IMG/VR virus record: IMGVR_UViG_3300035703_000332
Span: 1 to 29,826 of that record
Direction: 5' to 3' (one strand)
Length of the DNA: 29,826 nt
Origin: a virus
The position numbers and the translations under genes were made by a program. Of this stretch, positions 19,753 through 25,252 are shown piece after piece; the stretch's first letter is position 1, and the number at the start of each line of letters is the position of its first letter. The notes below the pieces were generated by a model that was given only the letters and a program-made list of their open reading frames with translations, ran no database searches and was not told the DNA's origin.

Positions 19753-20570
19753 CCATGAGCGCAACAGCAATCGAAATCCTCGACGGCGCAGAAGGCTCAA
19801 CGGGCGAGAACGCATCCGCGACGCTCAGGTTCTACGTCACCGCCACGGACGAATTCGAGGCGCTCAACGCCGCGGGAATCCCGGGCGCGTATGACGGCAT
19901 GCCTCGCCAGTCGAGGTCCTGGCAGCAGATCGGGTTCCAGCAGTACATCGTCACCGCGAAGTACGGGATGAACGAAGGGACGGCGGACGGCGAGGACCCG
20001 TCCGATCCCACGACCGCGCCGCAATCGTCGTACGAATTCAACACGAGCGGCGGCAGCGAGACCATGTTCGTGTCGCTGCAGAACAAGCAGAAGGTGCCCG
20101 TCGCCGGATCGACGGCGCCGGATTTCAAGGGCGGCATCAACGTCACCGACGATGGCCCGCAGGGCGTGGAGCGCACCGTCCCCGTCTTCAGCTTCAGCGA
20201 GACGCACTACAAGGCAGCCGGTTACGTGACGAATGCATACATTGCGACGCTGCAGTCGCTGACCGGCGCGGTGAACAGTGACTCCTTCCGTGGCTTCTCG
20301 GCGGGCGAAGTCCTATTTCTCGGTTGCCGTGGATCGAAGCAGGGCGTGAATGGCCTGTGGGAGATGTCCTACTCATTCGCCGTCAGCCCGAACGTCACCA
20401 ACGGAACGATCGGCGAGTTCACCGGCGTGAACAAGAAGGGCTGGGAGTATCTCTGGTTCCTCTTCGAGGACGTCGAGGACGCGACTGCCAAGAAGGTCGT
20501 CCGACGTCCGCGCGCCGCGTACGTCGAGCAGATTTACAAGACGGCGTCATTCTCAGGGCTCGGCATCTGA
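19749..20570 (+). CDS. Distal tail / baseplate-like protein
   Basis: 273 residues from ATG 19749 overlapping the tape measure stop. An ATG two codons later is possible. Beta-rich, with an N-terminal segment of the type ENASATLRFYVTATDEFEAL, then QQIGFQQYIVTAKYG, and a strongly patterned second half: SLTGAVNSDSFRGFSAGEVL, FLGCRGSKQGVNGLWEMSYS, FAVSPNVTNGTIGEFTGVNK, KGWEYLWFLFEDVED and VYVEQIY-like AAYVEQIYKTASFSGLGI. The second half matches, from memory, a conserved but functionally undefined family next to tape measures in planctomycete-type phages. Its place suggests a distal tail hub component. Confidence 0.75.
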   Translation: MTMSATAIEILDGAEGSTGENASATLRFYVTATDEFEALNAAGIPGAYDGMPRQSRSWQQIGFQQYIVTAKYGMNEGTADGEDPSDPTTAPQSSYEFNTSGGSETMFVSLQNKQKVPVAGSTAPDFKGGINVTDDGPQGVERTVPVFSFSETHYKAAGYVTNAYIATLQSLTGAVNSDSFRGFSAGEVLFLGCRGSKQGVNGLWEMSYSFAVSPNVTNGTIGEFTGVNKKGWEYLWFLFEDVEDATAKKVVRRPRAAYVEQIYKTASFSGLGI

Positions 20571-21427
20571 TGGCGGACTACCTGCGCAAGGTCAAGAAGG
20601 GCGAGCCGCTCAGCATCTCCGCAGAGGCCTGGAATCGCCTCATGGACATTGCCCGTGCCGACGGCACGGACCGGACGCTCGCGGGCGCGCGGCAGGAGGC
20701 ATCGAGGCGCGATCTCGACGTTGCGCTGGTCAAGAACACCACCTCGCGCGACCTGCCGCTCTGGGGCGGCATCACGCTCGGAGCTCCCGTCTTCCCGCCT
20801 GCAAGCGGCGACTCGCTGCCGCAGGACTTCGCCGAGCGGACCGTGCTGAATGGCGTCGAGCCAGCGGCCTGCCCGGCGCGCGGAGCGGTCCTGCTGCAGC
20901 CTCTTGCGCCGGGCGCGATCGGCAGGGCGGTGGTGTCCGGGATTCTCTGCTGCCGCGTGCGAGTCACGACCGAGGGCATGCGGCGCGCGGTCTTCGTTCC
21001 GTGGGAGGTGTCGTCGGAGTCGCTCTACCCGCTCGCCGATCATGCCGGGCCGCTCGAGCTGCTTTGGCTGGAGGCAGGGACAGGCCTGCGTTATGCGGTG
21101 GCGATGGTCGGAGGTTCTGACCGGCGGTTCCTGGCGGCCATTCAGTCGTCCGCGGCCATCTCGGGCTCGTCGAACAAGTGGAGCTACACGGTCAGGACGT
21201 GGACCTACGGCGGGTCGACGACCAGCGGTCGCCTGATCTCCAATGTTCGCAACCTTCGTGAGTTCGAAAACACCTCATCGATGGCAGACGGCAACAGCCT
21301 TACGAACCCGACCACGACGATCGGACCGGTGGTCGGAAAGGTCGAGGCCTGGACGGAGATCGACAGCTCAGGCAACTGCGTCACGTTGTTCGACCGGCCG
21401 AACCCAGTGACCGGGTGCGGCACATGA
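20570..21427 (+). CDS. Tail tip region structural protein
   Basis: 285 residues from ATG 20570, overlapping the previous stop (TGATG at 20568-20572). Begins MADYLRKVKKGEPLSISAEA and WNRLMDIARAD, a helix-rich attachment segment. The middle is beta-rich: VKNTTSRDLPLWGGITLGAP, VEPAACPARGAVLLQPLAPG and IGRAVVSGILCCRVRVTTEG. The C-terminal 90 residues are Ser/Thr/Gly-rich. The V.n.sg.dlp..g.l.l..p.f pattern with 'l.Gv.P....a..vl.epi..g.iGra.vsG' occurs in phage proteins encoded after the tape measure. Probably a baseplate or tail-tip part. Not assigned to a named family. Confidence 0.72.
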   Translation: MADYLRKVKKGEPLSISAEAWNRLMDIARADGTDRTLAGARQEASRRDLDVALVKNTTSRDLPLWGGITLGAPVFPPASGDSLPQDFAERTVLNGVEPAACPARGAVLLQPLAPGAIGRAVVSGILCCRVRVTTEGMRRAVFVPWEVSSESLYPLADHAGPLELLWLEAGTGLRYAVAMVGGSDRRFLAAIQSSAAISGSSNKWSYTVRTWTYGGSTTSGRLISNVRNLREFENTSSMADGNSLTNPTTTIGPVVGKVEAWTEIDSSGNCVTLFDRPNPVTGCGT

Positions 21428-22770
21428 TGCGACGCAGGTGCTGCTGCGGTACGGGCGCGAAGGTCAGGATCACCGAGCTCTACCAAGTGTGCGGCGTGGT
21501 TCGCCATGCTCGCTGGTATTCAGGGCCCTTCAACGCCACCGAACCGATCACGGACTGCGGGCCGGTTCCATCGGCACTCACCGCAGATCCGACTGCCTGC
21601 GGATGCGGTTGCTCTCGCACGGCACCGGAGCCGCCCTCGTCGGACTGCGAGGGCAACGGCGGCGCGATGGCGAAGTACAACCTGCAGCCGTTCGACATCA
21701 CGGTCCGCGAGGACTACATGGACTCGAGGACGGCGGATTTCGACTACGTCGACCAGACGTCCGTGACCGGAACGGGGAACTGGAGATGGCACGACGGCTC
21801 AAGCCTGATCGTCACCAACTTCACCTTCTCGTGGACCCAGGTCAGGAAGCGCTACAGGAACAATTCCCTGAAGTCACGGAACGTCAATTCGTCCGGGCCG
21901 AGCCCCGTCAACTGCTGCCAGTGCGTCGACGGGACATCGGGCGCCTCGCAGGACGTCCACTTTGCCGACCGCGGCACCTACCTCAGCGACATCGATGCGT
22001 TCGGTGTCTACGGCGCGTCGGCACAGTATTCGACATGGACGATCGAGATCGCGGGCGGCCTGGCAATCGTGCGCGACGGGGCCGGGACAATCATGTACCA
22101 GTGGTCGCTCTCGGCGCACACCATCGACAGCCTGCGTGCAGCGATCGACGCGACAGCGGAGCTCGTCGGCCGACGCATCGCGCTCAATGCCGGGACCAAT
22201 CTGCGGACCGCCGCCGCCACGTCGATCCCCGTTCAGGGGCCGAAGGCGGTCGGGCAGTCGACCGCCACCGAGGCAAAGGTTCGACTGCGCTCGGCTGGCG
22301 ATGAGCTCGAGGGCTTCCAGACCGTCGGCATGGCTTACTACCAGTACGGCAGCGACTTCACGCTGAGCGGAGTGCGCGAGCAGGAGTTCGCCGGTTCGAT
22401 CACCGACTTCAGGCGCGGCTTCGCGCTGGACCTGTCGCAGAGTTCGTATCCAGCAGATATTGGGCAGGGATATGTCGACTACGTCTTCACGGCCGGATCG
22501 TCGGCTCGTGAATGCCCGGCGGTATCTGGAACCACCTGCTTGGTGTCAGGTGGATGCTCCAACCTGTCGTTCGGGAACACAAGCGGCGGTTTCTACACGG
22601 GCTCCGTGCCGCTCTCAGGGAATGCGTCGGAGCAGGTCTTCTCCTGGGACAACGTGTTCCCGTCGGCTGCGGTCGCGCAGGGACTTGGCTGCACGAGGTA
22701 CGCGTGCACGTTCGTCTCCGAGTTCACCGCCTACATGGTGAAGCGCATGTTCGAGGTCGAGCGCCTGTGA
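21424..22770 (+). CDS. Cysteine-rich N-terminus, beta-rich tail tip protein
   Basis: 448 residues from ATG 21424 overlapping the upstream stop. An adjacent ATG 21427 is possible. The first 70 residues hold many cysteines (MRRRCCCGTGAK; VCGVV; DCGPV; TACGCGCSRT; SSDCEGN), and two later clusters contain NCCQCVDG and ARECPAVSGTTCLVSGGCSN. The rest is beta-rich and Ser/Thr/Gly-rich (TADFDYVDQTSVTGTGNWRW; LSGVREQEFAGSITDF; FGNTSGGFYTGSVPLSGNAS) with aromatic repeats typical of carbohydrate-facing virion proteins. Cysteine pairs may bind metal or form disulfides outside the cell. Probably a virion tail-tip protein. Function otherwise unknown. Confidence 0.72.
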   Translation: MMRRRCCCGTGAKVRITELYQVCGVVRHARWYSGPFNATEPITDCGPVPSALTADPTACGCGCSRTAPEPPSSDCEGNGGAMAKYNLQPFDITVREDYMDSRTADFDYVDQTSVTGTGNWRWHDGSSLIVTNFTFSWTQVRKRYRNNSLKSRNVNSSGPSPVNCCQCVDGTSGASQDVHFADRGTYLSDIDAFGVYGASAQYSTWTIEIAGGLAIVRDGAGTIMYQWSLSAHTIDSLRAAIDATAELVGRRIALNAGTNLRTAAATSIPVQGPKAVGQSTATEAKVRLRSAGDELEGFQTVGMAYYQYGSDFTLSGVREQEFAGSITDFRRGFALDLSQSSYPADIGQGYVDYVFTAGSSARECPAVSGTTCLVSGGCSNLSFGNTSGGFYTGSVPLSGNASEQVFSWDNVFPSAAVAQGLGCTRYACTFVSEFTAYMVKRMFEVERL

Positions 22771-23076: not shown

Positions 23077-23832
23077 TCAGCCTTCCACTTCCCGGATGTT
23101 CCGGATCATCGATCGCTTCAGATCGTCGTTGAACTCCATCCGGAAGAGGCTCTGGATCGACGAGTCCTTGACGGCGTGCGGCAAGACGAACGCCTCACCG
23201 GTGCGGGTTGCGACCGCGTTCCAGCGGCCGTCAGGCGTCTCCCGTGGTTGTGCGAGCCGCACCGACTTGACGTGCACTTCGCCGTCGATGAGCTCGTACT
23301 CGGCTCGCAGCCACAACCTGACCATGGTCACCTTGCTTCCGAACGGCGTGACCACCTTTTGCGACAGCTTGCACTCGTTGATCGTGATCCACACCCAGGT
23401 GCCGCTGTTTCTGCGCCGCTCCGCTTCTCTTCGTGAGCGTTCTTCCCTCTCGGCAGCTTGTCGCTGTTTCGTGGCTTCGCGCTCAGCAGATCGCTTCGCG
23501 TGCTGTTCCGCCTTTCTCTTCCTCTTCTCGATGTTCAGCAACTCTGCTCGTTCGACGTTGCGATTCCATGCATCCTTGAAGCTCTTCCAGCGATCGGCGA
23601 ACCATCCGAGCAGGATGTCGCGTTCGGCATGCTCGGGCGTCGGTGGCGTCGCGGCGGGAACTGGCCGGAACGCCAGGCCATTGGCCTTCGCGGCGGATCG
23701 CCACTGGTTTCCGTCGCGCGACAGGTCATCCGACGGAGAGAGGCGTCCGTCGGACGCCATCGCCTTGATCGTCGCCACGTCATGCGGGCCGCTTGTCGCG
23801 CCGCCGGGCTTCCTCACGTAGTAGCCGTTCAT
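23077..23832 (-). CDS. GYF_2 (DUF4339)-type protein with coiled coil, moron candidate
   Basis: 251 residues on the minus strand from ATG 23832 with GGAGG six bases upstream. Residues 1-55 match the GYF_2 pattern: YYVRKPGGATSGPHDVATIK, a DGRLSPSDDLSRDGNQWRSA turn, and AKANGL. A loop of about 30 residues (PVPAATPPTPEHAERD) leads to a long charged helix with Lys/Arg/Glu/Ala (LLNIEKRKRKAEQHAKRSAE; ATKQRQAAEREERSRREAER; about 93-140). The last 110 residues look like a compact beta domain (WVWITINECKLSQKVV; MVRLWLRAEYELIDGEVHVK; GEAFVLPHAVKDSS). GYF_2 modules occur in planctomycete membrane and secreted proteins. Strand reversal between tail and integrase genes suggests expression in the lysogen. 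Confidence 0.85.
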   Translation of the reverse strand: MNGYYVRKPGGATSGPHDVATIKAMASDGRLSPSDDLSRDGNQWRSAAKANGLAFRPVPAATPPTPEHAERDILLGWFADRWKSFKDAWNRNVERAELLNIEKRKRKAEQHAKRSAEREATKQRQAAEREERSRREAERRRNSGTWVWITINECKLSQKVVTPFGSKVTMVRLWLRAEYELIDGEVHVKSVRLAQPRETPDGRWNAVATRTGEAFVLPHAVKDSSIQSLFRMEFNDDLKRSMIRNIREVEG

Positions 23833-23922: not shown

Positions 23923-24144
23923 TTACAGTGGGGGCGGCTTCCGCTTCGTGGGACGCCCTCGTCGACGAGGCTTGGCAAGCGTCCGGACCTGGTCGTCGGA
24001 CCACAGAAACGTCCGTCCCGCGACGAGCGCGGGGCGAAGGCCGGCGGATTTCGCGCGCTGCAGGACGGCCTGCGTCGTGATCCCGAGCGCCAGCGCGACG
24101 TTTGATGTTGTCCTGAGTCCCCGCACGGGACGTTGGTATAGCAC
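23923..24144 (-). CDS. Excisionase-like helix-turn-helix protein
   Basis: 73 residues on the minus strand if started at GTG 24144, where GCGGAAAG lies just upstream. GTG 24126 or 24171 are alternatives. The core TTSNVALALGITTQAVLQRA, then KSAGLRPALVAGRTFLWSDD and QVRTLAKPRRRGRPTKRKP, is a MerR/excisionase-type winged helix: helix-turn-helix, a wing carrying G-R-T-F-L-W, then a basic tail. Its location 63 bases from the divergently transcribed integrase fits an excisionase (Xis/Cox) or small regulator of the integration genes. Which of these it is cannot be told from sequence. Confidence 0.7.
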   Translation of the reverse strand: MLYQRPVRGLRTTSNVALALGITTQAVLQRAKSAGLRPALVAGRTFLWSDDQVRTLAKPRRRGRPTKRKPPPL

Positions 24145-24207: not shown

Positions 24208-25086
24208 TTGCACGAGTCCGTACCAGGATGGGTCGACCGGATGGTCGCGCTCGACTACGCGGAGCAGCACGTCGCGCACTGCCGACGGGCAGTCGAGATG
24301 CTCTACCTCGCCAGCGGCGCGACGCACCCGTCGGATATCACCGCCGACGAGCTCGAGCGATGGCTGGACGCGCAGCCGAGCCCGAAGACCGCGGCCAACC
24401 GACGCTCCTACGTCGGCGCCTACCTCGACTGGTGCATGGGCCGCGGCCTCGTCGAGCGCAACGTCGCCCGCGCCGTGCGCACGCGCAGGCCGCGGCCGGG
24501 GAAGGGCGCGGACCTCGTCCGTCAGGATCAGCTGAGCATGGTCGTTGCGCGCCTCGAACGGCAGCATGCGGAGTCTGGCGGCGACCGCAGGTGCACTGCG
24601 CTCTACCGCTCGCTTTGCTACCGATTCCTGTGGGCGACGATGATCCGCGTCTCGGAGCTGCACTCGATCACCTGGGAGGAGATCGACTTCGACGCGCGCA
24701 CGCTCCGCATGCGCATGGACAAGGCGCGCAGGGCGGACGCGATCCCGCTGTCGGACGATGCGATCGCGGTGCTGTGGCAGCTGCACGCAGGGCACGTGCC
24801 CATGCCGAGAAACCGTGGCGCAGGCATCACGTACGCGTTCCCGCTGAAGATCAGCGCACACACCCTGCATGCGGATTTCAAGGCGGTCGGCGTCGATGGG
24901 CGCGGCGCGTTCCATCGGCTCCGCAAGGGAGCGATCACCGCATGCATCGAGGCAGGCGTGCCGGTGCATCTGCTTGCCAAGCTGAGCCGCCACGCGAACG
25001 TCTCCGTGCTGGTGCAGAGTTACTACGTGGCCTCTGACCCGCTGCTGCGCGACGCGCAACGCGCGCTGCGGCTTGGGGTTGCGTGA
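24208..25086 (+). CDS. int: Tyrosine recombinase / phage integrase
   Basis: 292 residues from TTG 24208, preceded by GAGGAA at 24194-24199. Residues 1-95 are the SAM-like core-binding domain (PGWVDRMVALDYAEQHVAHC; ERWLDAQPSPKTAANRRSYV). The catalytic domain holds all the expected residues: Arg147 (MIRVSELHSI), Lys172 (RMDKARRADAIPL), the His236-x-x-Arg239 box (FHRLRKGAITA), His262 (LSRHANVSVL) and the nucleophile Tyr in QSYYV (Tyr272 or 273). The protein is short because it lacks an N-terminal arm-binding domain, so it may be of the simple XerC/XerD-like size class. A hairpin follows its stop and a tRNA-like attP candidate lies 130 bases downstream. Confidence 0.93.
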   Translation: MHESVPGWVDRMVALDYAEQHVAHCRRAVEMLYLASGATHPSDITADELERWLDAQPSPKTAANRRSYVGAYLDWCMGRGLVERNVARAVRTRRPRPGKGADLVRQDQLSMVVARLERQHAESGGDRRCTALYRSLCYRFLWATMIRVSELHSITWEEIDFDARTLRMRMDKARRADAIPLSDDAIAVLWQLHAGHVPMPRNRGAGITYAFPLKISAHTLHADFKAVGVDGRGAFHRLRKGAITACIEAGVPVHLLAKLSRHANVSVLVQSYYVASDPLLRDAQRALRLGVA

Positions 25087-25216: not shown

Positions 25217-25239
25217 TGGAGCCGAGGGGAGTCGACCCC
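25217..25239 (-). other. Candidate attP core (tRNA-Ala or tmRNA 3' end)
   Basis: On the minus strand this 23-base stretch ends CGACTCCCCTCGGCTCCA, which reads as the T-loop 3' part, T-stem 3' strand, acceptor 3' strand (CGGCTCC) and discriminator A of a tRNA or tmRNA. The U at the position expected for U70 of the acceptor fits the G3-U70 wobble pair of tRNA-Ala and tmRNA. The opening GGGG lacks the second T of TTCGA, so the identity with the host gene probably begins at TCGA. There is no other tRNA-like structure around it, so it is a fragment, as expected for an integrase crossover core. Host gene type is inferred. Confidence 0.75.
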
Positions 25240-25252
25240 AAGGCACGAGTGG

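Follow-up and report, generated by a model that had tools for sequence, protein, structure and literature searches.

It is highly probable that the 19 bp at positions 25217-25235 (minus strand), which match the 3' end of tRNA-Ala and tmRNA genes exactly from T55 to A73, form the attP core of a temperate tailed phage that would integrate at a host tRNA-Ala or tmRNA gene. Confidence in the attP core is good because two independent scans, one with the 19-mer and one with the integrase, converge. The segment is invariant in 18 of the 18 phages with this integrase, including that of the window, i.e. the whole stretch of DNA analysed in this study, which is an entire IMG/VR record that comprises 29,826 bases and is classed as linear. 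For an uncultured phage lineage, this puts the likely point of insertion at a T-loop and names the enzyme, and the 19 bp offer an exact probe for hosts and prophages of the lineage.

The gene-end segment in the phage genome

The window has a G+C content of 0.667 and encodes a terminase, a portal protein, a head protease, a tail tape measure protein, an integrase, an AAA_24 recombination ATPase, Gp157 and a ParB-like protein. These genes identify it as a tailed phage with an integrase, which is most likely temperate. The site lies between the genes for packaging, head and tail of the phage and the recombination genes. For the terminase, portal, head and AAA genes, cultured relatives are distant only and spread over many phyla. 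A protein encoded at 23077-23832 on the minus strand has an N-terminal match to the GYF_2 domain, which is weak and falls under the cut-off.

Read on the minus strand, the sequence of 25217-25239 is GGGGTCGACTCCCCTCGGCTCCA, and that of the 19-mer (25217-25235) is TCGACTCCCCTCGGCTCCA. In tRNA numbering, TCGACT corresponds to T55-T60 of the T-loop, CCCCT to the 3' strand of the T-stem, CGGCTCC to the 3' acceptor strand with U70, and the final A to the discriminator A73. This position-by-position reading agrees with the preliminary description, which had recognised the order T-loop, T-stem, acceptor and discriminator and an apparent U70 on the minus strand of 25217-25239. Of that longer segment, only the 19 bp of 25217-25235 hold as an invariant block; 25236-25239 are phage-side bases that differ among relatives. 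Position T54 is a G in the window and a T in most relatives, and hence the T-arm of the window is imperfect. What looked like a one-base deletion in the T-loop of the window was ruled out, since T54 proved to be substituted when the sequences were aligned without gaps.

The segment had been described as lacking a surrounding tRNA fold. Consistent with this, ARAGORN found no tRNA or tmRNA anywhere in the window, and Rfam found none in the window at the gathering score, nor in a local relaxed scan. The 19-mer occurs only once in the window even with three mismatches allowed (0.03 occurrences expected), and therefore the window holds no second copy, as had been noticed earlier. The distance from the integrase stop (25086) to the 19-mer is 131 bp, close to the 130 bp given before.

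Co-conservation with the integrase family

The 19-mer alone was scanned against 2.9 million IMG/VR viral contigs, which yielded 59 loci. At 17 of these 59 loci, an integrase 58-62% identical to that of the window lies beside the site, with an unchanged relative orientation. The second scan used the integrase alignment and profile alone, leaving the 19-mer aside, and is independent of the first. It returned 17 relatives on the identical 17 contigs, and all 17 keep the exact 19-mer, in support of the attP core proposed in the preliminary description. A short tRNA-end motif by itself thus sufficed to retrieve an integrase family from 2.9 million viral contigs.

In the relatives examined, the integrase stop is followed by the start of the site at a distance of 74-76 bp in the main group and of 94 bp in L010, compared to 131 bp in the window; in every case the integrase lies on one strand and the gene end reads on the other. 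When the window, L010 and L033, which represent three diverged lineages, were aligned on the site, the 19-bp core was 100% identical; the flanks were 27-32% identical beyond 20 bp upstream and 20-30% identical beyond 10 bp downstream. In ungapped comparison, the attP sites are variable 5' of T55 and constant from T55 to A73. The integrase is by far the best-conserved of the proteins compared among these phages; besides the integrase, two proteins of the window (20324-21424 and 21415-22767) match weakly, at 30-35%. This conservation pattern is that expected of an attP core tied to its own integrase.

Alternatively, the segment might play no part in integration and be what remains of a tRNA or tmRNA encoded by the phage, or a decoy of one. 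Genes for tRNA and tmRNA with the same 3' end do occur on viral contigs, and the upstream bases of L010 could pair with the acceptor strand to give a mini tRNA-like helix (L010:1177-1230, with GGAGTCG upstream of CGGCTCC). The Rfam models of mascRNA and tmRNA match there below threshold, and the tmRNA model likewise reaches only sub-threshold scores in L033. However, the mini-helix is not kept in the window and was therefore rejected as a general feature. Moreover, in 17 of 17 relatives the 19 bp accompany this one integrase family at an almost constant position, with the rest of the tRNA missing in all, which makes a remnant or decoy very unlikely. Even less credence can be given to a chance resemblance, or to a terminator-like hairpin 3' of the integrase gene. 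The GGGG...CCCC bases are able to fold into a short hairpin, with a second one behind it. Yet, all 19 positions are exact across integrases of only ~60% identity, non-pairing positions included, and 0.03 chance matches are expected in the window, even at three mismatches.

Among the integrase-bearing contigs, none has a complete tRNA or tmRNA gene at the site, and in the window phage genes flank the site; for these reasons all integrase-bearing contigs appear to be non-integrated. Together with the lack of a second copy in the window, this upholds the earlier view that the sequence is probably the free phage form. Against the attP reading stand the imperfect T-arm of the window and two negative results: an attL/attR pair, i.e. 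an integrated copy, was found in none of the collections searched, and no host gene of a cellular genome was matched.

The integrase, a candidate excisionase and a predicted mechanism

The integrase gene (24208-25086, plus strand, with a TTG start) encodes a tyrosine recombinase of 292 aa, which matches Pfam PF00589 (E=8.5e-18) and the PHROG 1 integrase (E=5.1e-29). The catalytic residues R147, H236-x-x-R239, H262 and Y272/Y273 are invariant in the integrase alignment, and the TTG start aligns with GTG codons in the relatives. The AlphaFold model has a mean pLDDT of 71.6, with the C-terminal 30 residues poorly modelled. In this model, the predicted protein is composed of a helical core-binding domain, formed by the first helices, and a catalytic domain, without an N-terminal arm-binding domain. 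Foldseek matches of the model include XerA, Tn1549 Int, Brujita Int, lambda Int and Cre. The integrase profile retrieved no relatives from the GTDB genome collection, and no relative was detected among GenBank phages and PLSDB plasmids.

Upstream of the integrase, and divergent from it, lies the gene of a small HTH (MerR/HTH_17-like) protein of 67 aa (23923-24126, minus strand). It is conserved beside the integrase, and L010, L033 and the main group have homologues in the equivalent position; the HTH_17 matches of these relatives are weak, and the family assignment falls under the Pfam cut-offs. The protein is a candidate excisionase, which would act as the directionality factor.

The T-loop forms the centre of an imperfect 9-bp inverted repeat, which reads GCCTTGGGG-TCGACT-CCCCTCGGC in the window, with TCGACT as 6-bp spacer. 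One half is the host-like core arm GCCGAGGGG (25221-25229, plus strand), which comprises the 3' strand of the T-stem and the acceptor; the other half is the phage-specific core arm CCCCAAGGC (25236-25244, plus strand), which is variable between lineages. At this spacer and with the same centre, the arms match at 7 of 9 positions in the window, 6 of 9 in L010, 7 of 9 in L033 and 8 of 9 in L028, and the 6-bp spacing gives the best or joint-best dyad in these four attP variants. Random arms reach at least 7 matches in 0.6% of cases at a fixed spacing and in ~8% over all spacings tried, and hence the dyad is not individually rare. Its symmetry is suggestive of core sites at which an integrase would bind. 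We infer two such sites, one on either side of a predicted strand-exchange region of ~6 bp that lies in the T-loop. This overlap region, TCGACT, would occupy 25230-25235 (minus strand); judged by the symmetry its length is 6 bp, with 4-8 bp possible.

Our analysis established the sequence of the segment, its occurrence as a single copy, its unvarying link to the integrase family and its match to gene 3' ends. Integration might proceed as follows. The two arms of the imperfect inverted repeat around the T-loop sequence would be bound by the tyrosine integrase, and strand exchange would take place within TCGACT between attP and the T-loop of the host tRNA-Ala or tmRNA gene. The phage would thereby insert into the host gene. 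Because attP carries the gene 3' end from T55 to A73, insertion would restore an intact host gene, beside the integrase end of the prophage and presumably ~130 bp from the integrase 3' end. The displaced 3' fragment would remain at the opposite end of the prophage, which would carry the DNA right of 25240.

A more far-reaching idea, which we regard as doubtful, is that the divergent HTH protein, the arm-less integrase and the 19-bp T-loop core constitute a compact stand-alone integration unit. Such a unit would move between otherwise unrelated high-GC phages, with a minimal attP devoid of arm sites, and would always target the T-loop of the same gene, which is regenerated.

Candidate target genes and comparison with known systems

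The preliminary description had left tRNA-Ala and tmRNA as alternatives and advised a search for complete genes sharing the segment. Complete genes of both kinds that terminate precisely with the 19-mer were indeed present, although on viral contigs rather than in the actual host. ARAGORN called complete tRNA-Ala genes in L002, L029 and L040, complete tmRNA genes in L003, L015, L017, L034, L036, L038, L041, L042, L048 and L052, and permuted (two-piece) tmRNAs in L020, L044 and L049, all on viral contigs. Because both kinds share this identical end, the sequence does not decide between them. The expectation that the host target could be named from the segment hence held for the gene class (Ala tRNA or tmRNA). 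It did not hold for the gene and the host, since the 19-mer is common to both genes, and neither an exact match to the 23-mer TCGACTCCCCTCGGCTCCATTCG (core plus TTCG) nor a relative of the integrase was found in the GTDB genomes. The bases after TCCA are TTC in the window and the main group and CTA in L010, and CCA in none of the three integrase lineages. An attP would be expected to carry CCA if the gene encoded it, and therefore the sequence suggests a target gene without encoded CCA.

A tmRNA gene (ssrA) is a plausible target, just short of probable, and would leave the attP mechanism unchanged. Among the 59 viral loci, the complete genes ending in the 19-mer are ~13 tmRNA genes, permuted ones included, versus 3 tRNA-Ala genes. 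Moreover, the one-piece tmRNAs of the viral loci lack an encoded CCA, like all attP cores of the integrase family. The E. coli prophage CP4-57, with integrase intA, sits close behind smpB, and ssrA figures as a known island target in passages of the literature (PMC3146451, PMC4383910). However, the tmRNA genes with the 19-mer sit on viral contigs and not in a host, and tRNA-Ala genes share the identical end, that of L029 without CCA. A tRNA-Ala gene, with the same attP mechanism, is likewise a credible target that stops a little below probable. Alanine identity fits U70 and A73, the 19-mer also terminates complete tRNA-Ala genes, and other phages of the 19-mer scan (L035, L055 and the L024 group) have a longer tRNA-Ala 3' match that includes CCA. 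In contrast, the window and its relatives show neither a match to the variable-loop side of tRNA-Ala (GGTCAGGGG) nor CCA.

Two groups of viral loci deserve separate mention. A second phage group (L008, L024, L027, L035, L047, L050, L055 and L056) carries a longer tRNA-Ala-like segment, GTCAGGGGTTCGACTCCCCTCGGCTCCACCA; possibly, these segments are attP sites used by a different integrase family whose target is a tRNA-Ala gene that encodes CCA. The viral contigs L003, L015, L036, L038, L048 and L052 carry a complete tmRNA gene with the tag ANESLMAVAA, beside tRNA genes.

The principle of a gene-end attP is already well known and belongs to ordinary temperate-phage biology. Integration at tRNA and tmRNA genes, with the gene regenerated by the attP fragment, is the standard mode of tyrosine integrases (PMC4383910). 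The system of the window resembles the Islander class of tRNA/tmRNA-gene attP sites of temperate phages and genomic islands, T-loop sublocation (PMC4383910), in its tyrosine integrase and its int-adjacent attP with a regenerating 3' gene part. It differs in being known only from the non-integrated form, with no host gene seen, and in an integrase family without a detected relative in the GTDB, GenBank phage and plasmid collections searched. In E. coli CP4-57/IntA at ssrA, the integrase likewise lies beside the tmRNA gene 3' end, but it is another integrase, and the core of the window ends at A73, without CCA. The ssrA gene of E. coli encodes CCA.

The integrase of mycobacteriophage Brujita (PDB 5vfz) is described as a simple integrase without an arm-binding domain. 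It is similar to the integrase of the window in size and two-domain layout, and is a Foldseek match at 22% identity, yet with a score no better than that of XerA. The attP of the Brujita/BPs type lies inside the repressor gene; no recognisable repressor overlaps 25217-25239, where small unrecognised ORFs are possible. Compared to lambda-type integrases, the integrase of the window (292 aa) is predicted by its model to be missing the N-terminal arm-binding domain. Its best fold and sequence matches in the PDB are XerA/XerC-like recombinases (PDB 5hxy, 4a8e). However, Xer acts at dif sites, whereas the site in the window is a tRNA or tmRNA gene end.
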